Positions 9,637-41,731 of a stretch of DNA of 64,000 nucleotides are shown piece by piece. The stretch is taken from NCBI RefSeq assembly GCF_900105675.1, contig NZ_LT629786.1:6076001-6140000 (forward strand), read 5' to 3'. The position numbers and the translations under genes were made by a program. The notes beneath the pieces are model-generated. The model worked only from the letters and a program-made list of their open reading frames with translations, was not told the origin of the DNA and did no database searches. The stretch's first letter is position 1. Each line of letters begins with the position of its first letter. Source of the DNA: Pseudomonas synxantha. Lineage in GTDB: Bacteria > Pseudomonadota > Gammaproteobacteria > Pseudomonadales > Pseudomonadaceae.

Positions 9637-9646
9637 CACGCTTCAC

Positions 9647-9672
9647 CTGTAGGAGCGAGTTCGCTCCTACAG
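9647..9672. repeat. REP hairpin, GTAGGAGCGAG family
   Basis: CTGTAGGAGCGA-GT-TCGCTCCTACAG, a perfect 12-base-stem palindrome just after uvrD. It belongs to a second REP family, seen again at 11284. The following bases to 9861 hold no recognisable gene. Confidence 0.88.
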
Positions 9673-9861
9673 AGAACGGTTCAACATGAAGGTTACGGCT
9701 GCTCCCTTGTATTTCACGAGGACGCGCCAATATCTGTAAAACGTCCTACAGACCCTTCGGATTCGGTCTTACGCAAAAGCCCGAAACATTATGCCGCTAG
9801 CCACTGTCACGACACCTGTGCAACATGGCGCGCGTGCAATCCACAAATGGGAATTCCCTTT

Positions 9862-10734
9862 ATGAAACGTTTTCTTAGCATCGCCATGGCGTTGTGCATC
9901 GGCTTGACGATGAGCCTCGACGCCAACGCCAAACGCTTCGGTGGCGGCAAAAGCTCGGGCGCGGCGCCGACTCACCAGACCAGCCAGATGGCTCCAAGCG
10001 CCGGTGCCGGCGGTGCAGCCGCCACTGCGGGCGCAGCCGGTGCCGCTGGCGCTGCTGCCAAGGCCGGCGGTGCTTCGCGCTGGCTGGGCCCTCTGGCCGG
10101 TATCGCTGCCGGTGGCCTGCTCGCCTCCATGTTCATGGGCGGCGGCTTCGAGGGCATGCAGATTTTCGATATCCTGATCCTGGCCGTCATTGCTTTCGTG
10201 ATCTTCCGCTTTATCGCCGCCCGTCGTCGCAAGCAGCAGGAGCACCTGGCTCCAGCCGGCGCGCCAATGCAGCGTGAAGTATTCGAGCAGAAGCCTGCCA
10301 TGGGTTCGATCTTCGGTGGTTCGGCAGCACCTGCCGCTGCCGCCCGTCCGGTGATCAACGCACCGGCCTGGTTCAACGAAGAGCGTTTCGTCGAAGCGGC
10401 CCGCAGCCACTTCCAGTCCCTGCAACAACACTGGGACGCCAACGAAATGGACAAGATCTCCGAGTTCGTGACCCCGCAACTGCTGGAGTTCCTCAAGCGC
10501 GAACGTGCCGAGATCGGTGACGCGTTCCAGTCGACCTACATCGACGACCTGCGCGTTCAACTGGACGGTGTGGATGATCGCGCCGACAAAACTATCGCCA
10601 CCCTGACCTTCAGCGGCGTGTCGAAGACCTCGCGCTTCGACCAGGGCGAAGTGTTCAGCGAAAGCTGGAACATGGAACGTGCCCAGGGCGAGGACCAGCC
10701 ATGGCTGGTGGCCGGTATCCGCCAGAACGGCTGA
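9862..10734 (+). CDS. Tim44-like domain membrane protein
   Basis: 290 residues from the ATG at 9862, which gives a clean signal peptide (MKRFLSIAMALCIGLTMSLDANA) and has GGGAA at a proper distance; the upstream ATG at 9847 only adds five residues. After a Gly/Ala/Ser-rich stretch come one or two membrane segments (about 72-120, ending in FRFIAARRRKQQE) and a C-terminal Tim44-like fold (about 165-290, with WFNEERFVEAARSHFQSLQQHWDANE). Bacterial members are inner-membrane proteins of unknown function. Ends before a strong terminator. Confidence 0.85.
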   Translation: MKRFLSIAMALCIGLTMSLDANAKRFGGGKSSGAAPTHQTSQMAPSAGAGGAAATAGAAGAAGAAAKAGGASRWLGPLAGIAAGGLLASMFMGGGFEGMQIFDILILAVIAFVIFRFIAARRRKQQEHLAPAGAPMQREVFEQKPAMGSIFGGSAAPAAAARPVINAPAWFNEERFVEAARSHFQSLQQHWDANEMDKISEFVTPQLLEFLKRERAEIGDAFQSTYIDDLRVQLDGVDDRADKTIATLTFSGVSKTSRFDQGEVFSESWNMERAQGEDQPWLVAGIRQNG

Positions 10735-10761
10735 AACCTGCACGTTTGAGCAAGCGGTAAC

Positions 10762-10789
10762 AAAAACCCCGGACATGTCCGGGGTTTTC
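10762..10789 (+). terminator. Rho-independent terminator after the Tim44-like gene
   Basis: AAAACCCCGGA-CATG-TCCGGGGTTTT hairpin followed by a T-rich tail, 28 bases after the stop codon. Confidence 0.9.
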
Positions 10790-10869
10790 TATTTCACGGT
10801 TGCACTTATAGCGAGCTACTGTATAAAACGCCCCTATAAACCGCGCCATCTAGCAAGAGGATCCCGGCC

Positions 10870-11277
10870 GTGGAAGAAATCATCGAACAATTGCGTGAAG
10901 CCAACGAACCGGTCCCGGTTCCTTTGGAGCTGCCTGACGAAGACCAACTGGTGGAAATCGAAGAACAACTGTTCATCGACATCCCGTTTGTCTTCCGCGA
11001 ATTCCTGCTGACCGTCAGTGATGTGGTGTACGGCAGCCTGGAGCCGGTGACCGTCACCGACCCACAATCCCACACCTACCTGCCAGAGGTTGCCGCCAAC
11101 GCCTGGGATGCCGGCGTTGATCGCAGCATGATCCCGATCTGCCAGGACGGCGATGACTACTATTGCGTCGAGGAAGACGGCACCGTGGTGCTGTGGTCCG
11201 GCGAAGAAGAACTCGTTACCGAAGAAACCTGGGAATCGGTATGGCACTGGGCGCGGGACGTCTGGCTGGAAAGCTGA
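10870..11277 (+). CDS. SMI1/KNR4 (SUKH) family protein
   Basis: 135 residues, strongly acidic. The core (IEEQLFIDIPFVFREFLLTVSDV) matches the SMI1/KNR4 pattern of a helix with P-x-x-F/Y-x-x-F followed by a small beta domain ending in W-WARDVWLES. The start is GTG at 10870 with AAGAGGAT upstream. SUKH proteins often serve as immunity proteins to nuclease toxins, but no toxin gene is beside this one and the pseudomonad-wide version is single, so a role in immunity is not supported here. Function unknown. Confidence 0.75.
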   Translation: MEEIIEQLREANEPVPVPLELPDEDQLVEIEEQLFIDIPFVFREFLLTVSDVVYGSLEPVTVTDPQSHTYLPEVAANAWDAGVDRSMIPICQDGDDYYCVEEDGTVVLWSGEEELVTEETWESVWHWARDVWLES

Positions 11278-11283
11278 GGCCTT

Positions 11284-11372
11284 TGCAGGAGTCGAGCTTG
11301 CTCGCGAGAAACCTGAGGGCGCCACTGGTTGTCAGGTTTCCCGCGTTATCGCTAGCACGCTCGCTCCTACTG
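11284..11372. repeat. REPIN of the GTAGGAGCGAG family
   Basis: CAGGAGTCGAGCTTGCTCGC at the left and GCTAGCACGCTCGCTCCTAC at the right are inverted REP halves around a spacer that itself contains an inverted AAACCTGA/TCAGGTTT. The right half runs into the stop codon of the antiporter gene. Confidence 0.8.
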
Positions 11373-27817: not shown

Positions 27818-28606
27818 CTATGGCACTCGCCGTTCGAGCAAACCATCCTGGATCCACTGCTTCAGCCATGTGGCCGCTTGCAGTGGCGCACCCTCTTCAT
27901 AAGTGACTGCCAACTGCGCACACAGTTCTGAAAAACTCCAACCGGTGGTCACCATCCCCGCCAGAGCACCGGCTTCTCCGGGCTCCAGGCTGCGGTAGTG
28001 GCACACATTCTCATGGCGCCACACCAGGCAGAGTTGCGCCAGATTCAGAGCTTGGCTGCCGGGGAAATCCAATTGCTCCTTGCTGGCGCGCCAGATCGCC
28101 ACCGTATTGAAACGGCAAAGCAACTGCTGCACTGAGGGCGCGAGGGTGACCTGTAACGCCGGCCAGTCTTCAGGCGCCAGTTGCGCCATGTCATTCAAGG
28201 TCAGCGGCGCACCCTGGGGCGCATCAAACGCCAGGGTGAACGCCCACTCCAAGCGCGCCATTTCAGCCAGCGGCGCACTTTGTTCTGCGACCAGGCGCTC
28301 AAGGATAAACACTGCAAAGCGTTCACCCAGCCAGCGCAGGCTATAGTGGGCCGAGGGATATCGACGGATATAGGCTTGGGTCAGCAAGGCAAACTCATCA
28401 TCTCCCAGCCAATACCAGATGGCGCCGAAGTCATGGCGCAGCACTTCCTGCAATCGCGACAGGTAGGCGTTGTGATAAATGGCCAGCCCCGTGTCTACAT
28501 CCAGCGTCGGCCCACCCAGCAAGGTGGCGGCAAAGCCACTGTTGGCGACGGACGTTTCGGATAACAGATGCTGCTCAAAAGCCAACTGCCAGTCGATCAG
28601 GCGCAT
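27818..28606 (-). CDS. bufC: BufC/HvfC family partner protein (DUF2063)
   Basis: 262 residues. The DUF2063 N terminus (FEQHLLSETSVANSGFA, GLAIYHNAYLSRLQEVLRHDF) and the second domain (EWAFTLAFDAP) match the putative DNA-binding-named family that accompanies MNIO enzymes and helps them bind the precursor peptide. Overlaps the end of bufB by 10 bases. Confidence 0.85.
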   Translation of the reverse strand: MRLIDWQLAFEQHLLSETSVANSGFAATLLGGPTLDVDTGLAIYHNAYLSRLQEVLRHDFGAIWYWLGDDEFALLTQAYIRRYPSAHYSLRWLGERFAVFILERLVAEQSAPLAEMARLEWAFTLAFDAPQGAPLTLNDMAQLAPEDWPALQVTLAPSVQQLLCRFNTVAIWRASKEQLDFPGSQALNLAQLCLVWRHENVCHYRSLEPGEAGALAGMVTTGWSFSELCAQLAVTYEEGAPLQAATWLKQWIQDGLLERRVP

Positions 28607-29442
28607 AACGATCTCCGGGCCAAGGCGCTGGTCCCAAGTTCGCGTGCCTTGCTCAATTCGGTGAGTAACTCTTCGAACGGCGGGAAATGGTCATCGCGTT
28701 CCAACAGTGTCGACACCGGCCCCAAGTGCTCCAGGGTCTGCTGATACAGCGCCCACACCGGGTCGCACACCGGATGGTCATGGGTGTCGACCACATAGTC
28801 GCCGTAGTCCATATGCCCTGCCAGGTGCAGTTGGCGAATGCTCTGGGGCGGCAGGTTGCGAATAAACGTCCAGGCGTCGAACCCATGGTTACGCGAACTG
28901 ACGTAGACATTGTTGACGTCCAGCAGCAACTGGCATCCGCTCAGGTGGGCCAGGGCGTTGAGAAATTCCCACTCGGTAAAGTCATCGGCCTTGGAGCGCA
29001 CATAGCTGGAGACGTTTTCCAGTACCAGCGGGCGCTGCAACACATCCTGTACCTGACGCACACGGCCGGCCACGTGGTAGAGACTCTCTTCGGTGTAGGG
29101 CAGAGGCAGCAGGTCATGCAACTGGTGCGCGTTGCCGCGGCTCCAGCACAGGTGATCGGAAATCCACGCCGGCTGGATGCGCTCGGCGAGCTGTTTGATT
29201 TGCTCCAGGTAATCGGTATCGAGGGCATGGGGCCCGCCGATGGACAAGGACACCCCGTGCATCACCAGGGGATAGCGCTCGGCTATGGCATCCAGGTAGT
29301 ACAAGGCTTTGCCGCCCGGCACCAGATAATTCTCGGAGATCACTTCGAACCAATCCACCGCAGGGGATTGCGCCAGGATCTGCTCATAGTATTCGTTGCG
29401 TAACCCCAGGCCGTAACCCAGGGAGGGGAAGGAACTGCTCAT
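28597..29442 (-). CDS. bufB: MNIO-family peptide-modifying enzyme BufB (DUF692)
   Basis: 281 residues. DUF692 TIM-barrel with iron-ligand motifs LGYGLGLRNEYY, MHGVSLSIGG, SDHLCWSRG, LENVSSY, DVNNVYV, HLAGHMD and DTHDHPV. MNIO enzymes use a multinuclear iron centre to oxidise cysteine residues of a precursor peptide into oxazolone/thioamide or thiooxazole groups. Two tandem ATGs (29445 and 29442) follow GGGAG; the second has the better spacing. The substrate should be the BufA product encoded 65 bases upstream. Confidence 0.88.
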   Translation of the reverse strand: MSSSFPSLGYGLGLRNEYYEQILAQSPAVDWFEVISENYLVPGGKALYYLDAIAERYPLVMHGVSLSIGGPHALDTDYLEQIKQLAERIQPAWISDHLCWSRGNAHQLHDLLPLPYTEESLYHVAGRVRQVQDVLQRPLVLENVSSYVRSKADDFTEWEFLNALAHLSGCQLLLDVNNVYVSSRNHGFDAWTFIRNLPPQSIRQLHLAGHMDYGDYVVDTHDHPVCDPVWALYQQTLEHLGPVSTLLERDDHFPPFEELLTELSKARELGTSALARRSLCA

Positions 29443-29507
29443 CATGAACTCCCGCAAAGTGTCCACAGCGGTGGAGTTGAACCGCTGCGGTTGCACTCGG
29501 TTGTCGC

Positions 29508-29777
29508 TTACTCGCCGACTTTGCCGCCAGCCTCGTCGCAAGCAGCCTTGGTCATGGTCTTGAAGCCGTGGCCTTTGCAGACAGCCTGGCCTTTGCAGAC
29601 AGCCTGGCCTTTGCAAGCGTTTTCGGCGGTCTTGCAATCGTTCATGCCTTTGCAGGAGGTGACGCCGTAGCAATGAACCGAAGCGTCGGCAGCCTGTACC
29701 TGGGTGGCGACACCGGCAAACATGGAAGCTGCAGCGATTGCCAGGGCTGCACCGGAAACGGCTTGTTTGATGTTCAT
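29508..29777 (-). CDS. bufA: Bufferin-type cysteine-rich metallophore precursor
   Basis: 89 residues: signal peptide (MNIKQAVSGAALAIAAASMFAGVATQVQA) then a mature part with seven cysteines (36, 42, 48, 55, 61, 67, 80) spaced every six or seven residues in CKG repeats. It is the first gene of the bufABC run. Family members are periplasmic copper-binding RiPPs made by the MNIO enzyme. CKGQAV is exactly duplicated at 55-66. AGGA lies 8 bases before the ATG. No DoxX-type fourth gene follows. Confidence 0.85.
   Translation of the reverse strand: MNIKQAVSGAALAIAAASMFAGVATQVQAADASVHCYGVTSCKGMNDCKTAENACKGQAVCKGQAVCKGHGFKTMTKAACDEAGGKVGE
29572..29607. repeat. 18-bp tandem duplication inside bufA
   Basis: CCTTTGCAGACAGCCTGG occurs twice in a row with no mismatch and a third, partial copy (CCTTTGCA) follows. 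In the coding strand it adds one CKGQAV unit with its cysteine. Confidence 0.92.
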
Positions 29778-29894: not shown

Positions 29895-31781
29895 TTAATC
29901 CTCAAGCTTCAACAGCGGCTCCTGGAAGCGCAATAAACGCCCGGCGTTACCCAGCACCAGCAAGGTGCTGAGGTTATGTAACACCGCCGCGATCATGGCG
30001 CCCGCCGCACCCAGCCAGCCAAACGCTGCGAACACCACAATGGCCAGGGTCCAGCCCAAGCCGATGATCACGTTCACCTGCAACGTCTGCCGGCACTGGC
30101 GGCTCAAGCGCACACAGGTGCCCAGGCGGCGCAAGTCGCTGCCGATCAACACCACGTCAGCCGACGCCAGGGCGATGTCCGCACCGCCCGCGCCCATCGC
30201 CACGCCGACCACACCGGCCTTGAGCGCCAGGGAGTCGTTGATGCCATCGCCCACCACCATCGGCCGGAAGCCGCTGCTGATTTCCCCCAGCACGCGGTTG
30301 AGCTTGTCTTCCGGCAGGGCCTGGGCTTCGACATCACTGATGCCCACATCCAGCGCCAGGCTATCGGCCACGCTTTGGCGGTCACCGGTCAGTAGCAATT
30401 GGCGGCCCAGGCCCAAGTCCCGCAGTTCTTGCAGGGCCTGGCGCGCTTCCGGCTTGACGCTGTCGGCCAGCAACAGCCAGGCCAGGAACTCGCCGTTCAA
30501 CGCCAGCCCGGCGATCGGGCCGTCATGGGTGGGAACGCCGGTAGTGACGATGCCCAACTGTTCGAACAATTCCGGGCGCCCGAGCGCCGCTTCGCCCTGC
30601 TCGGTCTGCGCTACCACACCCAGGCCCTGGCGCTCTCGGATGTCGGTGAGTGCCAGCATTTGTTCCTGGGTCGCCAACCCCGCCAACGCTCGGCTGACCG
30701 GGTGACTGCTCGCCGAACCGAGGCTGGCCGCCAGGTTCAGCAGCGCCTGGCGATCCGGCGCGGTGGTGTCGATAGACTGCAGGCGCAAAGTGCCAAAGGT
30801 CAGGGTGCCGGTCTTGTCGACCACCAGCGACGTCAGGTCGGCCAGCTCTTCAAGGAACGCAGAGCTGCGAATCAGAATCCCGTGGCGCGCCGCCACGGCG
30901 ATCCCGGCAATCGCCGTGGCCGGCGCCGACAACACTAGGGCGCACGGGCATGCCGCCACCAGCACGGCGAGCATGGCCTGGGCGTCATTGGTGACAAACC
31001 AGGTCACCGCTGCCAGCAACAGCACCAGCACCATATAGCTGCCGGCATAACGCTCCAGCAGCCGGGTGATCGGCGGCTTGGAACGCTCGGCGTTCTGCAT
31101 CAGTGCGATGACTTTGCCCAAGGTCGACTCATTGCCGGTGCGCGTCACTTCAAGGCGCAACAAACCATCGAGGTTGATCGCGCCTCCAAACACCTGCACG
31201 CCGACGCCGGCTTCCAATGGCACCGACTCGCCGGTAATCGGCGCCGTGTCCAGGCTCGCCTGGCCGGACAGCACGACACCATCAGCCGGCACGCGGTCAC
31301 CGGCGCGCACTTCGACGATATCGCCGGTGTTCAGGGTGCCGTTATCCACTTCGGTAATGGTGCCGTCCGCCTGCACCAGGCGGGCGTGGCTGCGGGTGAG
31401 TTTACCCAGGGCATGGATCGCTTCCTGGGAGCCGATCACGCTGCGCTCTTCCAGCACATGCCCGAAGATCATGATGATCGGCAACAGCGCCGCGGTGAGC
31501 AGATCGCCGGTAGCCCAGGCGCCGAGCATGGCCAGCGCAATCAATTGGTCGGTAATGCCGTGCAGGCTCGGAAAGCGCAGGCTGTACCAGGCCGAACGCA
31601 TCACCGGCACCGCCACCAACAGCGAAGCCACGCCCAGCAGCAACTGGCTCACGCCGCTCTGGTCCGGCGCCAGCCAGCGCCATACCAGGCCCAGTACCAG
31701 CAGCCCCAACGCGAGCATGGCCAGGGTCAATTGCCGGGCAGCGCTACGCTGTTCGGCGGAAGTCAGCATGGGCGCGCTCAT
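29895..31781 (-). CDS. P1B-type heavy-metal ATPase
   Basis: 628 residues. Order: short N terminus without a heavy-metal-associated domain, membrane helices, actuator motif ITGESVPLEAG, metal-binding CPC (AACPCALVLSAPA), phosphorylation DKTGT (D322), GDGIND hinge, and a last helix pair containing LHNLSTLLVLGNAGRLL. The CPC helix shows transition-metal transport; the final helix differs from both the Cu(I) and the Zn/Cd signatures I know, so the metal is left open. ATG overlaps the preceding SPFH gene (ATGA). End of the SPFH operon; bufA begins 117 bases further on. Confidence 0.88.
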   Translation of the reverse strand: MSAPMLTSAEQRSAARQLTLAMLALGLLVLGLVWRWLAPDQSGVSQLLLGVASLLVAVPVMRSAWYSLRFPSLHGITDQLIALAMLGAWATGDLLTAALLPIIMIFGHVLEERSVIGSQEAIHALGKLTRSHARLVQADGTITEVDNGTLNTGDIVEVRAGDRVPADGVVLSGQASLDTAPITGESVPLEAGVGVQVFGGAINLDGLLRLEVTRTGNESTLGKVIALMQNAERSKPPITRLLERYAGSYMVLVLLLAAVTWFVTNDAQAMLAVLVAACPCALVLSAPATAIAGIAVAARHGILIRSSAFLEELADLTSLVVDKTGTLTFGTLRLQSIDTTAPDRQALLNLAASLGSASSHPVSRALAGLATQEQMLALTDIRERQGLGVVAQTEQGEAALGRPELFEQLGIVTTGVPTHDGPIAGLALNGEFLAWLLLADSVKPEARQALQELRDLGLGRQLLLTGDRQSVADSLALDVGISDVEAQALPEDKLNRVLGEISSGFRPMVVGDGINDSLALKAGVVGVAMGAGGADIALASADVVLIGSDLRRLGTCVRLSRQCRQTLQVNVIIGLGWTLAIVVFAAFGWLGAAGAMIAAVLHNLSTLLVLGNAGRLLRFQEPLLKLED

Positions 31782-32812
31782 TGTTCGGCTCCCTGGATGA
31801 TCAAGCGGGAGTCGTCCTTGGGGTCGACGGTGGTGACGGAACCGGCCTGGCCGAGAATCTTCGGCATGCGCTCGCGGTACAGGCGCAACAGCAAACCAGG
31901 GTCTTTGACCTGGGCCAGGCTGGCGACAGTGGCGGTTTGCGCCTGGGCATTGGCCAAGCGTTCGCTGGCCTGGGCGTGGGCGACTTGCACCTGGCGGTCA
32001 GCTTCCTGATTGGCGTTCTGGGTGAGTTTTTCCGCTTCGGTGCGCGCATTGGCCACGGCTTTATCGGCTTGCTGGCTGGCGGTCAGTACCGCGTTGAAGG
32101 CATTCACCGCCGGGCCCGGCAGGCTTGATTGCACATCGACGCGGGTGACTTCGACGCCCAGGCCCAAACCGGCGGCGGCCAACTGCGCCAGGCGTTTGTT
32201 GATGCCTTGCACCAGATCGCCGCGCAGCCGCTCACGGCGTTCGGCGGCGCCATTGTCGCTGCCGATCAGCTCCGGGCGGGCGACCAGGATGGTGTCCAGA
32301 TCCCGCGCCGCGGTGAGGGCCACAGCGCTGCGGGTCACCAGCCGATCCAGGGCAGGCAACACGTGCTCGCCTTGCAATACGAAAGCGTAGGGCTCGGTCA
32401 CCTTATAGAAAACCCGCACGTCCAACTGCACTACCCCGGCATCGCCAGTCAGCAGATAACCGGAGCCAGCCAAGGCATCGCTCAACGGCGTAGCGAAACT
32501 GGCCACGCGATCAGCCTGCAGCGCCGCGTCGGAACGTAGCAGGTTTTCTACCCGGCGCTCGATCACCCGGTCCGCCGCCGGCAGCAACACCACCTGTTCG
32601 AAGGGCTGCGGCCAGGCCAGCAACAGCCCGGCGTTCTGAATGCGATCAAGGGCGCCGAAGTGCAGGACCACGGCGCGATTCTGCGGGTCGATCTGGCGCA
32701 CATTGGAAAAGGCCCAGGCCAACGCCGCCAACACGGTGACCGCGTACAGCGCCAGGAACGTCAGGCGCCCGGCCTGGATCCATGGGCTGTCCGGGCTGTC
32801 ACGCTCGCTCAT
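31778..32812 (-). CDS. SPFH/band-7 protein, HflK-like
   Basis: 344 residues. One N-terminal membrane segment (about 14-36), then an SPFH domain (VRQIDPQNRAVVLHFGALDR, VQLDVRVFYKVTEP) and an alanine/glutamate/glutamine-rich coiled coil (TASQQADKAVANARTEAEK...). In length and composition it resembles HflK, which with HflC encloses the FtsH protease. The normal hflK-hflC pair of Pseudomonas lies with hfq and hflX, so this is an additional set. Overlaps both neighbours by 4 bases. Confidence 0.82.
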   Translation of the reverse strand: MSERDSPDSPWIQAGRLTFLALYAVTVLAALAWAFSNVRQIDPQNRAVVLHFGALDRIQNAGLLLAWPQPFEQVVLLPAADRVIERRVENLLRSDAALQADRVASFATPLSDALAGSGYLLTGDAGVVQLDVRVFYKVTEPYAFVLQGEHVLPALDRLVTRSAVALTAARDLDTILVARPELIGSDNGAAERRERLRGDLVQGINKRLAQLAAAGLGLGVEVTRVDVQSSLPGPAVNAFNAVLTASQQADKAVANARTEAEKLTQNANQEADRQVQVAHAQASERLANAQAQTATVASLAQVKDPGLLLRLYRERMPKILGQAGSVTTVDPKDDSRLIIQGAEQ

Positions 32813-33801
32813 GGCTGGATGTCCTTCGGCCCGTCCACCAGGGCGCGGAACGGCGCAGCGTCGGTGCGCAGAATGATCTTGGTGCCCGGCGTAACCACGG
32901 TGCCCAGGGTGTCCAGCGAGCGCAGCAGGTTGTACAGCTGTGGATTACCGGCGTAGGCGCGACCATAAATCTGCGCGGCTTCGACCCGCGATTGCGCTTC
33001 GATATCGGCGGCTTTCACCGTCGCATCGGCCTGCACGATGCGCGCATCACGCTCGGCGGCGGAGCGGATCTGCGCCGCTTCGCGCTTGCCCACCGCAGTG
33101 CGCTCGGTGGCGATGGTTTCACGCTCGGCACGCATACGATCAACCGTGGCGGTGAGTGTCACCGAGGGCAATGTCAGGCGCTCGATGCCGACCTGCGCCA
33201 CGCGCACGCCGTAGGTGGCGAGCAGTTGTTGATCAATCTGCTGGCGCAACTGCGCTTCGAAATCAGCAATGCGCACTTGGCTGGCATCGGTATTGATCAG
33301 GCTGGACAGGTCAAAGCTGGCCGCGGTGGTCTCCAGCGCCGAACCGACGAAGGTGCGGATCTGCCGTGCCGCTTCATCCGGCTGGTTCTGCACCGCGCGC
33401 ATAAAGCGCTGCACATTGTCGGCATCGCCCTGCACCTGCCACGCCACATAAGCCTGCACGATAATCCGCAGGCCATCGCGGGTGCCCACATCCTGCAAGC
33501 CGCTGGACGTGGTGCGCAGGCGCAGGTCCACCGGGATCGCCGCTTCGAACGGCGCTGGCCAGCGCCAGCCCAGGCCAGGTTCCAACAACACCCGTGCGGG
33601 GTTACCGAAGCGGGTAATCACCGTGGCCTCGCCGGAACGCACCTGCACAAGGCTTGCCGCTGCCACGGCAAACAGCACCAGCAACACTGCCCAGGCCATA
33701 CGACGCCAAGGAAAAGGCCCGCTCGCCTGCTCATCGCCGTGATGGTGATGGTGGTGGCCGTGATGATGGTGATGACCGTGATCATGAGAATGAGCGCTCA
33801 A
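32809..33801 (-). CDS. SPFH/band-7 protein, HflC-like, with a polyhistidine N terminus
   Basis: 330 residues. The N terminus has 14 histidines in the first 21 residues (positions 4-21), then a membrane segment (about 33-53) and an SPFH domain (VRSGEATVITRFGNPARV, VQAYVAWQVQGDADN) with a coiled-coil tail (RAERETIATERTAVGKREAAQIRSAAERDA). The histidine tract should be cytosolic and may bind Zn, Ni or Cu; with a metal ATPase in the same operon a metal role is plausible. Starts 12 bases after the 641-residue gene ends. Confidence 0.85.
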   Translation of the reverse strand: MSAHSHDHGHHHHHGHHHHHHGDEQASGPFPWRRMAWAVLLVLFAVAAASLVQVRSGEATVITRFGNPARVLLEPGLGWRWPAPFEAAIPVDLRLRTTSSGLQDVGTRDGLRIIVQAYVAWQVQGDADNVQRFMRAVQNQPDEAARQIRTFVGSALETTAASFDLSSLINTDASQVRIADFEAQLRQQIDQQLLATYGVRVAQVGIERLTLPSVTLTATVDRMRAERETIATERTAVGKREAAQIRSAAERDARIVQADATVKAADIEAQSRVEAAQIYGRAYAGNPQLYNLLRSLDTLGTVVTPGTKIILRTDAAPFRALVDGPKDIQP

Positions 33802-33813
33802 CAGACAGACTCC

Positions 33814-35739
33814 TTATTGAACGGCTTTGCGCGGCACCGACGGATCGGCGGGCAAAGTAAAAGAACGCAGATCAATCGTCGGCGCACTGCCGGCACCCAA
33901 ACGATGATCCAGAATAAGCAGCTTGGCGTGGGCCAGGCCCAGGCTCAGTTGACCCAGGTACTGTTCCAGCACGAAGGCCTGGCCAGCGGCGGCGTAGGCT
34001 TTTTGTTCGGCGGTAAAGCGTAGGTTCGCCGCTTGCGCGCCAGCATTCACCTCGCGGGCGTTGGCCTGGGCTTGATCCCGGGCAGTGCTGGCTTGCAACA
34101 GCGCTTGGTTGGTCTGCTCGCTGGCGGCGCCGCGTTCCCGGGCGATCAGGGCCTGGGCGCCGATCTGCGCGGCTTGCACACCGTGGTAAGCGTTGGCGGC
34201 TCCAGCGGGCGGGTGAATCGCTTCGACCACCGTGGCAAGGATCTCCACACCACTGTCGAGTGTTTGCAGATCGGCTTGCACGCTGCGACCAATTTCGTCG
34301 GCGAGGCTGGTGCGTTGTTCACCGAGCAATTCGTCCAGGGTGCGCGAGGCGAAGTCATGCACCAGGATGCGGCTGGCGGTACTGCGGATCAGAGTCGGGA
34401 TATCAGCGCTGTTATAGGTGGCGGAGAGCGCGGCCTGGTCGGTAAGGCCGATACGGTAGACAAAACGCACGTCCATATTGACGATCTGGAAGCCCTGCTT
34501 ATCGCCGCTGCTGCTGGCAATGACCTGGGATTTGTCATTTACGTGGCTGGCGTCCCACAGGCGGTTGGCGATCAACGGCGCCGGGCCTTCGGCAGCGGCC
34601 AACGGCGCAGTGGCGGCTTCACTGACGCTGGTCGCCAGCTCATGCACCACGCCGTTTTCGATGTTCAGCACACGGCCCAACGGCCACGGTAAACCCGCAT
34701 GCAGGCCGGGGCCGAACACCTCGACCGGTTTGCCAAAGCGCTCATAAATCCCACGGCCTTGCAGGGGCACCTCATGCACGCCGGTCAGCGCCCAACCGAC
34801 CGCGAGCACCACCAGCAGCACCGGCAAAAACGCCCGGCGCATGTAGGTAAAGGCCCAGATCTGGCGCAGGTCGATACCGAAACGGTTGTGCAATTCATGC
34901 TGCAACGCCAGCAAGGGTTGTGGCGGCCAACGCAGCAGGCCGGCGATAAAACTCTGCGCTATCAAGCGCGGTTCGAGACGCGGCTGGCGTGGGCTGAACA
35001 GCGACAGTACGCCTCTGAGCAGGAACTCCAACGCCACCAGTGCCGGCAGCAGGCCGATCAGTGTCGCCAGGCGCAGTGGCCAAACCGACTCGGCATTGGC
35101 AAACAGCAGGCAGATTGCACTGATCACCAGGCAGATAATTGCCACCCGGCTCAACTGCGCCAGCTGTGACGCTTCCGGCCATTGGGCGGCGGTTTCCTGG
35201 GCGAGGCGACGTTCAAACACCAGCAGACCGAACGCCAGCGCCAACGCCAGCGCCGCGCCGATGCTTGCCGATTGACCGACGGCCGCAGCGGGCAAGGCCA
35301 GGTTCCAGAACTGGGTAACACTGACCAACGCCAGCAGCGACCAGCCACCCAACCACAATACCGGCGCGCCGACCTGGGCCAGCAGACCATTGCCGAAACG
35401 GTTGATCAGGCCCTTGTGCCAAGTGGTGGGCTCGCTGGGTTCTTCGACCAATTCAGCGCTTGGCGCCTCCAGCGCCTGGGCGCGCCAATCGGCCACCCAC
35501 CAGGCCGACTGTAACCCGGCTACCAGCACCAACAGGGCCGAAGCGCAGTTGATCAACACCACCGGCCAGATCGACAGTGGCGCAAACAACGCCACGAACA
35601 ACGCCAGTACCCAAGCACTGATGGCCAGGGTCGTCAGGCTGATGCCAGCCTGGCGCAGTCGACGGGCATGGAACAACCCTTGCTGAAAACGCGCAAGGCC
35701 CTCTACCGAAGCGCCGTCAGCTTCTAGATCCACTTGCAT
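33814..35739 (-). CDS. Polytopic membrane protein with a C-terminal SPFH domain
   Basis: 641 residues from the ATG at 35737-35739. About seven membrane segments occupy residues 30-360 (for example AISAWVLALFVALFAPLSIW and the one ending LLVVLAVGWALTGVHEV), after which comes an SPFH domain (PLQGRGIYERFGKPVEVFGPGLHAGLPWPLGRV, DVRFVYRIGLTD) and a coiled-coil tail. The first gene of the operon. Longer open frame to 35916 is translated REPIN sequence and is not used. A large multispanning extension before the SPFH domain is not part of canonical HflK. Function unknown. Confidence 0.8.
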   Translation of the reverse strand: MQVDLEADGASVEGLARFQQGLFHARRLRQAGISLTTLAISAWVLALFVALFAPLSIWPVVLINCASALLVLVAGLQSAWWVADWRAQALEAPSAELVEEPSEPTTWHKGLINRFGNGLLAQVGAPVLWLGGWSLLALVSVTQFWNLALPAAAVGQSASIGAALALALAFGLLVFERRLAQETAAQWPEASQLAQLSRVAIICLVISAICLLFANAESVWPLRLATLIGLLPALVALEFLLRGVLSLFSPRQPRLEPRLIAQSFIAGLLRWPPQPLLALQHELHNRFGIDLRQIWAFTYMRRAFLPVLLVVLAVGWALTGVHEVPLQGRGIYERFGKPVEVFGPGLHAGLPWPLGRVLNIENGVVHELATSVSEAATAPLAAAEGPAPLIANRLWDASHVNDKSQVIASSSGDKQGFQIVNMDVRFVYRIGLTDQAALSATYNSADIPTLIRSTASRILVHDFASRTLDELLGEQRTSLADEIGRSVQADLQTLDSGVEILATVVEAIHPPAGAANAYHGVQAAQIGAQALIARERGAASEQTNQALLQASTARDQAQANAREVNAGAQAANLRFTAEQKAYAAAGQAFVLEQYLGQLSLGLAHAKLLILDHRLGAGSAPTIDLRSFTLPADPSVPRKAVQ

Positions 35740-35827
35740 CCACTCAACGCCCGCGTGTACATAATTCGTTACGATATAACACGAAGCGTGAAATTTTTGT
35801 TCGCTTTTGAACTCAGCCTGGATCCCC

Positions 35828-35920
35828 TGTGGGAGGGGGCTTGCTCCCGATGGCATTGGGTCAGTAAGTAGATGGGTTGGCTGATGCACCGCTATCGGGA
35901 GCAAGCCCCCTCCCACATTT
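35828..35920. repeat. REPIN, GTGGGAGGGGGCTTGC family
   Basis: Two inverted REP copies around a spacer of about 50 bases in the divergent gap 35740-36050 between the SPFH operon and the ynbA-like gene. The rest of that gap is presumably promoter sequence; I see no operator in it. Confidence 0.92.
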
Positions 35921-36050: not shown

Positions 36051-36674
36051 ATGATTTCCATCTACCAACTCAAACCGCGGTTCCAGAACCTGCTGCGCCC
36101 CCTGGTGCAGCGTCTCTACGACAACGGCACCACCGCCAACCAGATCACCGTGCTGGCGGGGGTGATTTCCTTGCTGGTCGGCTTGCTGATTGCTGCTTTC
36201 GCCCAGCAGCTCTGGCTGTTTGCGCTGATCCCGCTGTGGATGATTGTGCGTATGGCCCTCAACGCCGTCGACGGCATGCTCGCCCGGGAGTTCGGCCAGC
36301 AGTCACGCCTAGGCGCCTACCTCAATGAACTGTGCGACGTGATTGCCGACAGCGCGTTGATCCTGCCCTTTGCCTTGATACCCGGCGTGAGCCTGGCGCC
36401 GGTACTGCTCGTGACGCTGCTGGCGGTATTCAGCGAGTACGCCGGGGTGCTGGGGCCGATGGTGGGTGCATCGCGTCGCTATGACGGGCCGATGGGCAAG
36501 AGTGATCGGGCCTTCGTACTTGGCGTGCTGGCTACCGGTGTGGCGTTGGGCTGGCTCGGCGCCGGCTGGGTCGAGGCGGTGATGTGGCTGGTGGCTGCCC
36601 TGCTCGCCTACACCTTGGTCAACCGGGTACGTCAGGGCCTCAAAGAACAACAACACACTCCCCCTTCTGCATAA
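36051..36674 (+). CDS. ynbA: CDP-alcohol phosphatidyltransferase-like protein (YnbA family)
   Basis: 207 residues, about six membrane segments. The CDP-alcohol transferase motif is present in altered form: N71-A-V-D74-G-M-L-A-R79, eight residues, G88-A-Y-L-N92-E-L-C-D96. The first and third metal-binding aspartates of the usual D-x2-D-G-x2-A-R...G-x3-D-x3-D are asparagines, which I also recall for E. coli YnbA. It should transfer a phosphoalcohol or phospholipid group from a CDP-activated donor, but product and activity are unproven. First gene of a six-gene operon; gaps to neighbours are 10 bases or fewer. Confidence 0.82.
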   Translation: MISIYQLKPRFQNLLRPLVQRLYDNGTTANQITVLAGVISLLVGLLIAAFAQQLWLFALIPLWMIVRMALNAVDGMLAREFGQQSRLGAYLNELCDVIADSALILPFALIPGVSLAPVLLVTLLAVFSEYAGVLGPMVGASRRYDGPMGKSDRAFVLGVLATGVALGWLGAGWVEAVMWLVAALLAYTLVNRVRQGLKEQQHTPPSA

Positions 36675-36684
36675 GGATTTTGCG

Positions 36685-38433
36685 ATGCGCGAACAGCAAG
36701 AGCACACCTTCAGTACCCATGATGGCGTCGAGCTTTTCTACCGGCACTGGCCGGCTACGGCCGCCGCCGGGCCGCGCAAGGCAATCCTGTTGTTCCATCG
36801 CGGCCATGAGCACTCCGGGCGTATTGCCCACCTGGTAGATGAACTGGGCTTGCCGGAGTTTGATTTTTTCGCCTGGGACGCCCGCGGCCACGGCCAATCG
36901 CCCGGCGAGCGCGGCGACAGCCCCAGCTTTGCCACCAGTGCCCGTGATGTGCAGACCTTCTGTGACCACATCGGCGGCGCCTACGGCATCGAAGAGCAAA
37001 ACTTCGCCGTGATCGCCCAAAGCGTCGGCGCGGTGATCGCGGCCACCTGGGTCCACGACTATGCGCCGAAAATCCGCGCCCTGGTGCTCGCCTCGCCGGC
37101 CTTCAAGGTCAAGCTGTACGTGCCCTTCGCCCGCCCAGGCCTGGCCTTGATGCGCAGGTTTCGGGGCAACTTTTTCGTCAACAGCTACGTCAAGGCCAAG
37201 TTCCTCAGCCATGACCCGGAGCGCGTAGCCTCCTACGACAGCGATCCGTTGATCACCAAGGCCATTTCGGTGAATGTGCTGTTGGGGCTGTACGAAGCGG
37301 CCGATCGGGTTGTAGCCGACGCCCAGGCGATCCAGGTGCCGACCCAGTTGCTTATCTCCGGCTCCGATTTTGTGGTGCACCGTAAACCCCAGCAGCAATT
37401 TTTCGGCCGCCTCGGCAGCCTGAAAAAAGAGCTGCATATCCTCCCCGGGTTTTTCCACGACACCCTCGGTGAACGTGACCGAGCCGTGGCCGTGAGCAGC
37501 GCCAAACGCTTTATCTTGCAGAACTTCGCACACCCGCTGGACCGCGCATCTCTACTGAACGCCGACAAACTTGGCGCCACCTGCGCCGAATCCGAATCCC
37601 TCGCCGCGCCACTGCCACGCAATTCCCTGCGCGACCTCTACTGGCGCATGACCCGCGCCAGCATGGGCCTGGGCAAGAACCTGTCGGACGGCGTGAAACT
37701 GGGCTTCGACACCGGTTTCGACTCCGGCAGCACGCTGGACTACGTGTATCGCAATAAGCCTACCGGCAAGGGCGGGCTGGGGCGGATGATCGACACCAAC
37801 TACCTCAACTCCATTGGCTGGCGCGGTATCCGCCAGCGCAAGCTGAACGTCGAGGAACTGCTGCGCTTGGCCATGACCAAGCTGCGTGACGAGCACCGCG
37901 AGGTCCGTATCGTCGATATCGCCGCCGGCCACGGCCGTTACATCCTTGAAGCCTTGCAGGGCGTATCGCCGTTGCCGGAGTCGATCCTGCTGCGCGACTA
38001 CAGCGACATCAACGTGCGCGACGGTGGCGCGCTGATTCGCGAGAAGGGCTTGGGGGACATCGCCCAGTTCGTCAAAGGCGATGCGTTCGACCGCGCCGAC
38101 CTGGCTGCCCTGGACCCCAAGCCGACCTTGGCCGTGGTGTCCGGGTTGTATGAGTTGTTTGCCGATAACGCCATGGTCGGCGGCTCACTGGCAGGCTTGG
38201 CCGAAGCCGTGGAGCCAGGCGGTTACCTGGTGTATACCGGCCAGCCATGGCACCCGCAACTGGAGTTGATAGCCCGCGCGCTTACCAGCCACCGCCAGGG
38301 CCAAGCTTGGGTAATGCGTCGCCGCAGCCAGGCGGAAATGGACCAACTTGTCGAGGCCGCGGGCTTTCGCAAGATCACCCAGCGCGTGGATGAATGGGGC
38401 ATCTTTACGGTGTCCCTGGCCCAGAAGATCTGA
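36685..38433 (+). CDS. ynbC: Fused alpha/beta-hydrolase and methyltransferase (YnbC family)
   Basis: 582 residues. Residues 1-290 form an alpha/beta hydrolase of the monoacylglycerol-lipase type: oxyanion HRGHEHSGR, DARGHGQSPG, nucleophile elbow A-Q-S-V-G (about 112-116) and the histidine in GFFHDTLGE. Residues 390-582 form a class I SAM methyltransferase (RIVDIAAGHGRYILEA, then LAVVSGLYELF). YnbC in E. coli has the same length and arrangement. Together they could deacylate and methylate a lipid product of the neighbouring enzymes. Confidence 0.85.
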   Translation: MREQQEHTFSTHDGVELFYRHWPATAAAGPRKAILLFHRGHEHSGRIAHLVDELGLPEFDFFAWDARGHGQSPGERGDSPSFATSARDVQTFCDHIGGAYGIEEQNFAVIAQSVGAVIAATWVHDYAPKIRALVLASPAFKVKLYVPFARPGLALMRRFRGNFFVNSYVKAKFLSHDPERVASYDSDPLITKAISVNVLLGLYEAADRVVADAQAIQVPTQLLISGSDFVVHRKPQQQFFGRLGSLKKELHILPGFFHDTLGERDRAVAVSSAKRFILQNFAHPLDRASLLNADKLGATCAESESLAAPLPRNSLRDLYWRMTRASMGLGKNLSDGVKLGFDTGFDSGSTLDYVYRNKPTGKGGLGRMIDTNYLNSIGWRGIRQRKLNVEELLRLAMTKLRDEHREVRIVDIAAGHGRYILEALQGVSPLPESILLRDYSDINVRDGGALIREKGLGDIAQFVKGDAFDRADLAALDPKPTLAVVSGLYELFADNAMVGGSLAGLAEAVEPGGYLVYTGQPWHPQLELIARALTSHRQGQAWVMRRRSQAEMDQLVEAAGFRKITQRVDEWGIFTVSLAQKI

Positions 38434-38435
38434 AC

Positions 38436-39734
38436 ATGCGTGAACCCGGTTTATTGAAACCAGCGGTCCTCTGGCTGCTGCTGTTGGCGCCGCTGTTTTT
38501 CAGCACTTACGGCTTTGCCACCTGGGTCACCAGCCAGCGCAGCGACGTCGGCACGCTGGTATTCGGCTGGGAAACCCATATGCCGTTCTGGGCCTGCACC
38601 ATCGTGCCCTATTGGTCCATTGACCTGCTCTACGGCTTCTCCCTACTGTTACCCAATACTCGCCATGAACTGAAACAACATGCACTGCGCCTGCTGAGCG
38701 CGCAGGTTATTGCCGTCAGTTGCTTCCTGATCTGGCCACTGCGCTTCACCTTTGAGCGGCCGGAACTGGACGGCGTGTTCGGCTGGCTATTCACGGTGCT
38801 GGCCGGTTTTGACAAACCCTTCAACCAGGCACCGTCCCTGCATATCGCGCTGCTGGTGATCCTGTGGGTCATGTATCAGCGGCACACCCGGGGATTCTGG
38901 CGCTGGGTGGTGCATGGATGGTTCGCCCTGATTGGCCTCTCGGTGCTGACCACTTATCAACATCACTTTATCGACTTACCCACAGGCGCCCTCGCGGGGT
39001 GGTTATGCGTGTGGTTTTGGCCGGTGGAACATCCGAGCCCGTTGGTGAATGCGCGACTGACGCGGGATCCCCAACGCTGGCGCCTGGGAGTGCGCTATGG
39101 GCTGGGTGCATTGATACTGGCGGTGCTTGCTTTCGTGCTCGGCGGCGGCTGGTTGTGGCTGCTGTGGCCGGCGGTATCCCTGGGGTTGGTCAAAGCCAAT
39201 TACATCGTGCTAGGCGCGTCAGGCTTTCAAAAACGCGAAGACGGTCGTCTTAGTCCCGCCGCACGCTGGCTGTATGCCCCTTACGTTGCTGGCGCGTGGA
39301 TCAACTCGCGCCTATGGACACGCAGACACCCACAGCCCGATATGATTGTGGATAACGTCTGGCTTGGGCGTATTCCCACAACGCACCAGCAAGGTTCATT
39401 CAAGGCCATTGTCGATCTGTGCGCCGAACTGCCGATTAATCCACAGGGCCGTGCGTATGCCTGCGTGCCAGTGCTTGACCTGATCGCGCCGACCCCCGAG
39501 GAGTGCCTGAAAGCCGCGCAGGCTATCGAGCAACTGCGCCAGCACGGGCCCTTGCTGGTGTGCTGTGCCCTCGGTTACTCCCGCAGCGCTACCGCCGTTG
39601 CCGCCTGGCTGCTGATCACAGGGCGCGCCGCCACGATAGATCAATCGCTGGCTATCATTCGTACAGCACGGGCCAACGTGGTCCTGCATCCTGCGCACCG
39701 AGAAGCTTTGGAGGGTTTGCCCCATGCCCGCTGA
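38436..39734 (+). CDS. ynbD: PAP2 phosphatase fused to a dual-specificity phosphatase (YnbD family)
   Basis: 432 residues. An N-terminal polytopic membrane domain has PAP2 lipid-phosphatase elements (QAPSLHIALL and TYQHHFIDLPTGA). The C-terminal 130 residues are a cysteine phosphatase with the C-x5-R loop C-ALGYS-R in LLVCCALGYSRSATAVAAWLL. Two phosphatase folds in one protein match E. coli YnbD. It would dephosphorylate a phosphatidyl-alcohol-phosphate made by the YnbA enzyme, in the way Pgp enzymes finish phosphatidylglycerol. The ATG at 38436 is 2 bases after the ynbC stop. Confidence 0.85.
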   Translation: MREPGLLKPAVLWLLLLAPLFFSTYGFATWVTSQRSDVGTLVFGWETHMPFWACTIVPYWSIDLLYGFSLLLPNTRHELKQHALRLLSAQVIAVSCFLIWPLRFTFERPELDGVFGWLFTVLAGFDKPFNQAPSLHIALLVILWVMYQRHTRGFWRWVVHGWFALIGLSVLTTYQHHFIDLPTGALAGWLCVWFWPVEHPSPLVNARLTRDPQRWRLGVRYGLGALILAVLAFVLGGGWLWLLWPAVSLGLVKANYIVLGASGFQKREDGRLSPAARWLYAPYVAGAWINSRLWTRRHPQPDMIVDNVWLGRIPTTHQQGSFKAIVDLCAELPINPQGRAYACVPVLDLIAPTPEECLKAAQAIEQLRQHGPLLVCCALGYSRSATAVAAWLLITGRAATIDQSLAIIRTARANVVLHPAHREALEGLPHAR

Positions 39735-40167
39735 TATGGAACTCCAGGTGGTCGCCAGCCTGCTGCGCCGTGGCCATTCGCTGGATCAGTTATCCACAGG
39801 CCTGACGCTGCTCGGCGTACTGTTCGGCCTTGCCCAGCTATTGTTGGCGAGTATCTCGACGATCTGCCTGTTGCTGGCCCTGTGGATGATCGTATTGGGC
39901 CTGCTGCAAAAATACTGGGCATTGCGCGTGGCCCTCGACGCCGACCTGTTTGCCCTGCTCGCCCGCGACACCACACGCACACCGGACCTCGACCAGGCCC
40001 TGCAAACCCTTGGTTTGCAATCACCTAAACGAGCCGGTCGGCCCTGGAGCGAACGCCGTCGTGGCGCGCTCAAACTGTTGCGCAAACAAGCCTGGTTGCT
40101 GGGCGCGCAAGCGCTGCTGACCCTGGGCGTCATTCTCGCCAGCCCTTGGCTGCCTTTCGCCGGATAA
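39724..40167 (+). CDS. Small membrane protein of the ynb-like cluster
   Basis: 147 residues with two or three membrane segments (about 25-60, and 120-140) and a basic middle part (RAGRPWSERRRGALKLLRKQ). No family recognised. It starts inside the end of ynbD (11-base overlap; ATG at 39736 is an alternative) and ends 9 bases before the acyltransferase gene, so it is translated with the pathway and may be a membrane partner of one of the enzymes. Confidence 0.75.
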   Translation: MPADMELQVVASLLRRGHSLDQLSTGLTLLGVLFGLAQLLLASISTICLLLALWMIVLGLLQKYWALRVALDADLFALLARDTTRTPDLDQALQTLGLQSPKRAGRPWSERRRGALKLLRKQAWLLGAQALLTLGVILASPWLPFAG

Positions 40168-40176
40168 GGAATCCCC

Positions 40177-40797
40177 ATGTTCGAACCCGTGGTCGCCACG
40201 CTGATTACTTCCATGGCCCGCACCGTCACCGGCGCTCGCAGCCTGTGGCTGGGGTGCGCGCCGGTGCCGGTGCAACGCATCTATTTCGCCAACCACAGCA
40301 GCCACGGCGACTTCGTGCTGGTATGGGCGTCGCTGCCGCAGAACCTGCGCAAGTTCACGCGCCCGGTGGCGGGCAGTGATTACTGGAACAAGAGCGCCCT
40401 GCGCCGCTACATCATCAACCGTGTGTTCAACGGTGTGCTGATCGACCGCGAGCGCAAGGAGCCTGTGGATAACCCTTTGCAACCCATGCTCGCTGCGCTG
40501 GAAGGCGGTGACTCGCTGATCATTTTTCCGGAAGGCACACGCAATCTGGAGGATGGCTTGCTGCCATTCAAGAGCGGCTTGTACCACTTGGCCAAAAGTT
40601 ACCCACAGGCCGAACTGGTGCCCGTGTGGATAGCCAACCTCAACCGGGTCATGCCCAAGGGCCGAGTGCTGCCACTGCCCTTGTTATGCACAACCAGCTT
40701 CGGTGCTCCCCTGCAATTGGAAGAAGGCGAAGACAAAGCCGCATTCCTTGCTCGTACCCGCGACGCCCTGCTCGCCCTTGCCCCGGAGCATTCCTGA
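40177..40797 (+). CDS. Lysophospholipid acyltransferase (PlsC-like)
   Basis: 206 residues. Acyltransferase block I NHSSHGD (H-x4-D), block III FPEGTRN, and PVWIANLNRVMPKG are in the right order. The HSSHGDF variant instead of NHxSxxD is a minor change. It would re-acylate a lyso-lipid, which pairs with the hydrolase encoded two genes upstream. No such acyltransferase is in the E. coli ynb cluster. Confidence 0.87.
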   Translation: MFEPVVATLITSMARTVTGARSLWLGCAPVPVQRIYFANHSSHGDFVLVWASLPQNLRKFTRPVAGSDYWNKSALRRYIINRVFNGVLIDRERKEPVDNPLQPMLAALEGGDSLIIFPEGTRNLEDGLLPFKSGLYHLAKSYPQAELVPVWIANLNRVMPKGRVLPLPLLCTTSFGAPLQLEEGEDKAAFLARTRDALLALAPEHS

Positions 40798-40798
40798 A

Positions 40799-41731
40799 AT
40801 GGATAGCCAAACCCTGATGTTATTCGGCGGCATAGGCGCGATCCTGGTCATCGCCTCGCTGATCGGCCTGATCCTCAAGCTGCGCACCCGTGGCAGCCCC
40901 AATGCCGTGATCGACAACCTCAACGCCCGCATCAACGCCTGGTGGGTGATGGTGGTGGTGATCGGCATTGCCTTCTGGCTCGGTACTGGCGCGGTGATCC
41001 TGTTGTTCTATGCCGTGTCGTTCTACGCCCTGCGAGAATTCCTCACCCTCACCCCAACCCGGCGCAGCGACTACCCGGCCCTGGTGGCCGCGTTCTACCT
41101 CGCCCTGCCGCTGCAATATGTGCTGATCTACGCCGACTGGTATGGGCTGTTCTCGATCTTCATCCCGGTGTACGTGTTTTTGCTGCTACCGATCCTCGCC
41201 TCCCTTGGCGGCGACAGTACACACTTCCTGGAACGCGCCTCGAAGGTGCAATGGGGGCTGATGATCGCGGTGTTCTGCGTGTCCTTCGTCCCAGCCCTGC
41301 TGACGCTGGACATTCCCGGCTACGAAGGCCGCAACCTGTTGCTGATCGCCTACCTGGTGATCGTGGTGCAACTGTCAGACGTATTGCAGTACGTATGCGG
41401 CAAGCTGTTCGGCAAACACAAGATCGCGCCCAATCTGTCACCGTCGAAAACCGTGGAAGGGTTCGTAGGCGGAATTCTGCTGTCATCCCTGATCGGCGCG
41501 GCGCTGTGGTGGACCACACCGTTTAATCCCTGGCAGTCGTTCTTGATCGCGCTGTTGATCAACTTGCTGGGCTTTGCCGGTGGGATCGTGATGTCGGCGA
41601 TCAAGCGCGATCGCGGCGTGAAAGACTGGGGGCATATGATCGAAGGACACGGCGGGATGCTGGATCGGCTGGATTCGGTGTGCTTCGCGGCGCCGATCTT
41701 CTTCCACCTCGTACGTTACTGGTGGACCTGA
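40799..41731 (+). CDS. ynbB: Phosphatidate cytidylyltransferase-like protein (YnbB family)
   Basis: 310 residues, about eight membrane segments. The CdsA signature S-x-I-K-R-x4-K-D is present as SAIKRDRGVKDWGHMIEGHGG followed by LDRLD, and the upstream QLSDVLQYVCGKLFG and SPSKTVEGFVGG motifs match. It would make a CDP-diacylglycerol-type donor for the YnbA-like enzyme. Last gene of the cluster, followed by a REPIN. Confidence 0.87.
   Translation: MDSQTLMLFGGIGAILVIASLIGLILKLRTRGSPNAVIDNLNARINAWWVMVVVIGIAFWLGTGAVILLFYAVSFYALREFLTLTPTRRSDYPALVAAFYLALPLQYVLIYADWYGLFSIFIPVYVFLLLPILASLGGDSTHFLERASKVQWGLMIAVFCVSFVPALLTLDIPGYEGRNLLLIAYLVIVVQLSDVLQYVCGKLFGKHKIAPNLSPSKTVEGFVGGILLSSLIGAALWWTTPFNPWQSFLIALLINLLGFAGGIVMSAIKRDRGVKDWGHMIEGHGGMLDRLDSVCFAAPIFFHLVRYWWT

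Follow-up and report, generated by a model that had tools for sequence, protein, structure and literature searches.

In a 64,000-nucleotide stretch of the Pseudomonas synxantha genome (contig NZ_LT629786.1, positions 6,076,001 to 6,140,000; hereafter the window) lies a cluster of six genes, here called A, C, D, X, P and B in the order in which they are read, whose product A is related to the cytidine diphosphate (CDP)-alcohol phosphotransferases and carries asparagine at two of the four signature aspartates of that family. This fixed loss is the most unusual feature of the cluster and was missing from a preliminary description of it. What we observe directly is a defined gene set with a nested A-P-B core and a cassette of C, D and X, the invariable replacement of the first and third aspartates in A, and conservation of active-site residues across C, D, P and B. 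The cluster is most likely a lipid-synthesis module and not a fixed linear six-step pathway. We favour, at slightly better than even chances, the reading that it is a second, optional phospholipid branch supplied with CDP-diacylglycerol of its own, with A as an unusual transferase.

The six genes are real and form a conserved operon of lipid metabolism. They share one strand of a host genome that is a single contig of 6.84 Mb (Table 1), the successive junctions measuring 10 bases, 2 bases, an 11-base overlap, 9 bases and 1 base. The same six genes in the same order and on the same strand were found at 75 of 80 named loci, all from Pseudomonas and the best 80 of 569 confirmed stretches, and so the arrangement is not due to chance. 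Of the five exceptions (loci are numbered L and genomes G), L107, L122 and L134 adjoin contig ends, L136 has all six genes and an additional C-like open reading frame (ORF), and L164 has C-D-X only, on a contig that continues on both sides. The ratio of nonsynonymous to synonymous substitution rates (dN/dS) is about 0.03-0.34 across the six genes, with X highest, when the window is compared with up to seven relatives. Together, the ORFs, junctions, families, conserved order and dN/dS bear out the almost gapless single-strand cluster of the preliminary description. Its relationship to ynbABCD of Escherichia coli was also rightly recognised there: homologues of YnbA, YnbB, YnbC and YnbD stand together in the window, and the acyltransferase P and the small membrane protein X go beyond the E. 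coli operon, which has neither.

Table 1 Genes of the cluster and altered motif codons of gene A (window positions)
Feature	Position	Strand	Description
Gene A	36051-36674	+	CDP-alcohol-phosphotransferase-like membrane protein, 207 aa, YnbA family
N71 codon of A (motif place D1)	36261-36263	+	Aligns with the first motif Asp of 6h53
N92 codon of A (motif place D3), followed by E93	36324-36326	+	Aligns with the third motif Asp of 6h53
Gene C	36685-38433	+	Fusion of monoacylglycerol-lipase-type alpha/beta hydrolase and Methyltransf_20, 582 aa
Gene D	38436-39734 (mechanical ORF start 38394)	+	PAP2-like membrane domain and C-terminal dual-specificity phosphatase (DSP) domain
Gene X	39724-40167	+	Membrane protein matching no known family, 147 aa
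Gene P	40177-40797	+	PlsC-like acyltransferase, 206 aa, HX4D and FPEGTR motifs
Gene B	40799-41731 (mechanical ORF start 40703)	+	YnbB-type CdsA paralogue, 310 aa

Two signature aspartates are replaced in gene A

A matches the Pfam family CDP-OH_P_transf (PF01066) with 33.1 bits against a cut-off of 22. A crude hydropathy count gives it six hydrophobic segments, and its best PDB relative is 6h53, a CDP-diacylglycerol--inositol 3-phosphatidyltransferase (32.3 bits). The signature of the CDP-alcohol phosphotransferases (CDP-AP) is D1xxD2G1xxAR...G2xxxD3xxxD4, the eight residues of which have been termed absolutely conserved (PMC4634129), and in PgsA1 of Mycobacterium tuberculosis the aspartates D68, D71, D89 and D93 hold two metals (PMC6506517). 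A keeps D2, G1, A, R, G2 and D4 and departs from the signature at D1 and D3, and because of these two asparagines we name it CDP-AP-like and not a standard member. Both asparagines and the glutamate after D3 (E93) are present in 39 of 39 rows of the YnbA family, the window and E. coli included, and both asparagines in 77 of 77 named Pseudomonas rows, a set that overlaps with the first. In a control set of 33 PF01066 loci, biased to strong PgsA-like matches, 31 carry aspartate at D1 and D3. The other two are the window's own A and L173, which falls outside the pattern and by eye seems to show all four aspartates at another spacing. Also fixed in the 39-row alignment are the cytidine-site residues N30 and T33 as well as K150, R153 and R192.

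A sister family shares these replacements. At 12 loci (L235-L246) it has asparagine at D1 and D3 and lacks the arginine of 'AR'. Among 30 loci similar to this family, 27 have both asparagines (including L259/L284, which has internal stops) and L258 has both aspartates; L247 is a broken fragment, and L261 (the same place as L281) lies outside the pattern. In a tree the two Asn families form one group separate from the Asp types; the support is moderate (89/84), the motif columns were included, and two branches are very long. The position after D4 is valine in the window (V97) and in 19 of 21 YnbA rows, with one isoleucine and one methionine; all 12 sister rows have arginine there. Residues 147, 153 and 192 of A are proline, arginine and arginine, as against lysine (30 of 31), glutamine (30 of 31) and tyrosine (31 of 31) in the control. 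All rows of these comparisons were picked by patterns that fix N or D, so that the N and D columns hold by construction. An intact sister transferase stands beside P and a YnbB-type B at 12 loci (L225, L265-L275), and the sister gene is broken in G392 (L226). As separate observations, the Asn-type sister family adjoins P and B at L225 (6095-8438) and at L226, and G189 carries both Asn-type families yet a single YnbB-type B.

Work on studied relatives weighs against an active transferase with such a site. In MjPSS, altering any of the four aspartates lowers or abolishes activity, Mg restoring the D3 variant D62N hardly or not at all and the D1 variant D41S in part (PMC8633023), and in CEPT1 the variants D136A and D154A, which spacing assigns to D2 and D3, have lost almost all activity (PMC10156783). 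Since such aspartate changes damage the studied enzymes, A may not catalyse the usual reaction. A further point against the phospholipid branch is one similar protein, L261, which has serine at D1 and asparagine at D3. A could accordingly have ceased to be a transferase and serve as a CDP-diacylglycerol-binding regulator or scaffold, the module then tuning the pool of phosphatidic acid and CDP-diacylglycerol. Although both replaced aspartates are metal ligands and the mutants of relatives are weak or inactive, we consider this unlikely, if worth keeping in view, in the face of D2, D4, the glycines, the cytidine-site residues, N71, N92 and E93, which the YnbA family keeps without exception and the sister family almost without exception, and of a dN/dS of about 0.13-0.20 for A. 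A dead site would be expected to drift more often, though conserved pseudoenzymes exist. What is observed is that changes harmful in the studied enzymes are fixed in two Asn families together with most other signature residues.

A core of three genes and an optional cassette

A, P and B form the core of the cluster, to which C, D and X are optional additions. The cluster is patchy, as judged by the Methyltransf_20 domain of C, which scores above cut-off in 34 of 148 genomes of the window's own family and in 27 of 398 genomes of its phylum. Among 40 loci fetched from family and phylum around Methyltransf_20 matches, 32 contain A, C, D, P and B; X is found by tblastn at 22 of those 32 and by phmmer in 30 loci. 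Across the 148 family genomes, every one of the 33 with a strong C also has A, which occurs in 53, and every one of these 53 also has a YnbB-type B, which occurs in 69. This nesting, which covers C, A and B, is a pattern and not a probability, because the genomes are related and the search cut-offs differ (about 1e-144 or better for C, 1e-20 for A, 1e-60 for B); any PF12147 match gives 35 genomes, two weak ones being left out to reach the 33. In a survey of 65 loci picked by matches to C, A, B or the sister family, P and B were also present at 55 of the 61 loci with A or a sister transferase. Some places carry two locus numbers (L058 is L164, and L051 is L165).

The core also occurs apart from the cassette. 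At L276, L277, L278, L280, L282 and L283, A-P-B stands with neither C nor D alongside, and the C family was not found in the genomes of these loci; in two of these six genomes, G042 and G031, a search for D gave no match either. The cluster is split in G009, with C-D-X at L058 and A-P-B at L223, and in G110, with C alone at L086 and A-P-B at L222. Comparison of related loci displays the cassette as a block: a 3.5-kb segment with C-D-X is absent between A and P in L276 and present in L050, the aligned pieces being 87-90% identical, and about 1.9 kb with C alone is absent in L277 and present in L065 (aligned pieces 74-86% identical). In G344, A, C, P and B are together and a D-like gene (41% identity) lies elsewhere in the genome. 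Two further observations concern C. At L080 a 717-aa ORF (9208-11361, + strand) with an N-terminus that looks by eye like an export signal is placed between C and D, and G029 encodes a second, distant C-like protein (L085, 8519-10174, - strand; 36% identity) outside the cluster, in an 18-kb locus that yielded no A, D, P or B.

The preliminary description had envisaged a complete linear pathway, in which a CDP-lipid and an alcohol phosphate are coupled, D dephosphorylates the product, C trims and methylates it and P re-acylates it. Every family needed for this is indeed present in one operon at the 75 named Pseudomonas loci, and the closest solved relatives of A make a phospholipid phosphate. 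However, D was not found in G138 and G110, both of which have A, C, P and B, and the proposed linear order is therefore not supported. The re-acylation step fares no better, since the presence of P with A and B at the six loci in genomes where no C family was found makes P more simply a supplier of phosphatidic acid. In addition, E. coli YnbD, a protein with no ascribed function, complemented neither phosphatidylglycerol phosphate (PGP) nor undecaprenyl pyrophosphate (C55-PP) phosphatase strains (PMC7413402). We regard the linear pathway as decidedly unlikely.

Partner enzymes and the proposed branch

The partners of A, with the exception of X, resemble known enzyme families. C combines Hydrolase_4 (PF12146, 241 bits) with Methyltransf_20 (PF12147, 514 bits); its hydrolase half matches PDB 6qe2, named a monoacylglycerol lipase, with 71.9 bits, and its methyltransferase half has no credible PDB relative (best E 0.027). 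From the alignment, C keeps a predicted Ser-Asp-His set (S113 in 41 of 42 rows, D228 in 42 of 42, H258 in 41 of 41) and a predicted methyltransferase motif (D411 and G415, both 42 of 42). P matches the Pfam family Acyltransferase (PF01553) with 56.9 bits and NCBIfam TIGR00530 below cut-off (48.3 of 102.95 bits), and H40, D45, E119, G120, T121 and R122, which make up HX4D and EGTR, are conserved in 35 of 35 rows. B matches CTP_transf_1 (PF01148) with 246.7 bits and has the HGG...DRxD signature, with H284, G285, G286, D289, R290 and D292 conserved in 36 of 36. Its matches to the B proteins of other clusters and to E. coli YnbB extend over about 270-310 aa, that to the other CdsA of its genome (L216) over 167 residues only (35%); B is therefore a dedicated paralogue, distinct from the housekeeping CdsA. 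X matched no Pfam family at E 0.1, and its best E in a PDB profile search was 0.64; its structural model is a helical bundle (mean predicted local distance difference test score (pLDDT) 82.7, predicted template modelling score (pTM) 0.65), and R68, D72, R106 and R111 are conserved in 31 of 31 rows.

D had been called a PAP2-DSP double phosphatase, a reading that holds for its DSP half, which exceeds the DSPc cut-off (36.7 against 33.5 bits) and has a DSP fold, with Tk-PTP and PTPMT1 among its nearest relatives and a conserved active-site cysteine and arginine. For the membrane half the profiles stay below cut-off (PAP2_3, PF14378, 22.7 of 27 bits; PAP2, PF01569, 18.2 of 27.2 bits), and the PAP2 assignment thus rests on invariant residues: H136, H176, H177 and D180 are present in 37 of 37 rows, as are the catalytic histidine motifs PSLH and HHxxD, which are known for the family and from the PAP2 alignment in PMC7413402. 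Both phosphatase sites are therefore conserved in sequence. In a fold search with D the result rows were filled by the DSP half. The model of D contains helices at residues 7-34, 60-69, 76-99, 133-150, 153-171, 180-194, 212-235 and 237-264, with low confidence around residues 30-60 and 100-130; hydropathy alone recovers seven of these eight and one false helix in the DSP domain. If the helices cross the membrane, the modelled PAP2 and DSP sites may lie on opposite membrane faces.

On the basis of these families, P would acylate lysophosphatidic acid to phosphatidic acid, and B would convert this to CDP-diacylglycerol as a private donor pool. A, with an N-D-N-D metal site in place of D-D-D-D, would then move the phosphatidyl group to an acceptor. 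This acceptor is probably a phosphorylated alcohol or sugar other than inositol phosphate. Its phosphate is suggested by K150, R153 and R192, which neither Asn family varies and which resemble R155 and R195, the acceptor-phosphate arginines of PgsA1. C would contribute acyl-ester hydrolysis and methylation, acting on the product or on a lysolipid, and D and X would be further additions that act where present. Several points weigh against this scheme. In a pairwise alignment R153 is one residue off PgsA1 R155, which makes the phosphorylated acceptor a lead only, and the equivalent of PgsA1 R94 is valine in the window's A. Moreover, the E. coli operon does without P, and an E. coli ynbB knockout grows normally (PMC6362211).

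Other products can be envisaged for the same genes. It is improbable that the module serves a glycolipid, with the CDP-diacylglycerol from B going into a sugar-phosphate lipid (for instance GlcNAc-PP-DAG, the precursor of MPIase) and A aiding the transfer. The MPIase glycan is enterobacterial, whereas the cluster is common in Pseudomonas. Overproduction of YnbB does raise the glycolipid MPIase in E. coli, but a knockout brings no significant change in MPIase, and YnbB was unable to replace CdsA according to a statement given there as data not shown (PMC6362211). A 2019 title in the reference list of PMC12871917 terms YnbB dedicated to MPIase. Similarly, ynbB was one of five transposon hits for phosphoglyceride-linked enterobacterial common antigen (ECA-PG) and was then confirmed to be dispensable for ECA-PG (PMC8609368). 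The claim in the preliminary description that the E. coli product has no assigned function is consequently too strong for YnbB; to the ynb pathway as a whole no product is assigned in the papers covered.

A redundant route to phosphatidylglycerol is very improbable. CDP-diacylglycerol, glycerol 3-phosphate and a PTPMT1-like phosphatase would suffice for it, and the DSP domain of D resembles PTPMT1, but the genome already has a PgsA-like protein (L170, named by resemblance), A differs from the control at residues 147, 153 and 192 as described above, and E. coli YnbD did not complement the PGP phosphatase strain. An inositol route, with A making phosphatidylinositol phosphate and D stripping the phosphate, is barely credible: the NCBIfam and PDB entries closest to A are archaetidylinositol- and phosphatidylinositol-phosphate synthases, but the NCBIfam scores are far under cut-off (48.8 of 170 bits for NF045883 and 73 of 180 bits for NF040950), V97 replaces the positively charged residue after D4 that is a feature of phosphatidylinositol-phosphate synthases (PMC6506517, section 9) and essential in PgsA1 as R94, and inositol phosphate is an unlikely acceptor given that inositol-1-phosphate synthase (PF01658) was found in one of 20 genomes with C and gave no match in the window's genome, E. 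coli not being among the matching controls, in a search that covered the synthase and not uptake from outside.

We thus return to the second phospholipid branch as the preferred reading. A wider hypothesis, which we put forward tentatively and at somewhat less than even chances, is that the Asn-type CDP-alcohol phosphotransferases, YnbA and sister family alike, are a separate enzyme class that has rebuilt its metal site and employs either a single metal or a different acceptor chemistry, and that, partnered by a PlsC-like and a YnbB-type protein, they produce a minor phospholipid that is common in Proteobacteria and has escaped detection, C, D and X being an exchangeable tailoring cassette. 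A dedicated supply of CDP-diacylglycerol next to a transferase at odds with its family signature suggests that well-studied bacteria harbour an overlooked phospholipid or reaction. Nature provides a large exception to a signature termed absolutely conserved, a point of relevance to the annotation of the family and to the two-metal mechanism. The nested gene set allows clean genetic comparisons of A-P-B alone, with C, and with C-D-X.

Surroundings and comparison with known systems

Adjoining the cluster, on the opposite strand, three consecutive SPFH/Band_7 proteins and a P-type ATPase are encoded (window 29895-35916, - strand), and a relative of the protein encoded at 33814-35916 is also found near the cluster in L053, L054, L055, L057 and L061. 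Beyond them (28597-29673, - strand) lies a gene for an enzyme of the MbnB/TglH/ChrH family that modifies precursors of ribosomally synthesised and post-translationally modified peptides (RiPPs), with a match of 372 bits.

Descriptions of the Asn variant of A and of the A-P-B module were not found in literature titles and abstract openings. For the E. coli genes, it is reported that a cholinephosphotransferase annotation of YnbA was later withdrawn (PMC3781023), that BglJ-RcsB is said to activate ynbA (PMC12871917), and that ynbB serves as a transcriptionally silent control region (PMC5725501). ynbABCD is not universal in E. coli, since at least 80% of it is covered in 4242 of 5426 genomes. As an observation on the same operon (L003, 11622-16202), 847 of the 5426 genomes have no megablast match, and at the five best-listed E. 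coli places ynbABCD is in two pieces, with an annotated insertion sequence under the match.

Compared with other CDP-alcohol phosphotransferases (M. tuberculosis PgsA1, 6h53; PgsA; Af2299), A is homologous over most of its length and differs in the asparagines at D1 and D3, which recur in the sister family. B keeps PF01148 and the C-terminal HGG...DRxD of CdsA, but is a separate YnbB-type paralogue that matches the housekeeping enzyme in its C-terminal half only. D shares the DSP fold and the active-site cysteine and arginine with PTPMT1 and other DSPs, from which it is set apart by the joined PAP2-like membrane domain. The hydrolase half of C resembles the monoacylglycerol lipase 6qe2 and, unlike it, is fused to a methyltransferase domain. 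Closest of all is E. coli ynbABCD, with which the window shares the four families A, B, C and D, the same N/N site in YnbA, and 56% identity between the C proteins. The gene order is A-B-C-D in E. coli, with P and X missing, as against A-C-D-X-P-B in the window, and it is the E. coli operon, not the Pseudomonas cluster, that is the reduced and departing form. E. coli K-12 itself thus holds a four-gene form of the module.

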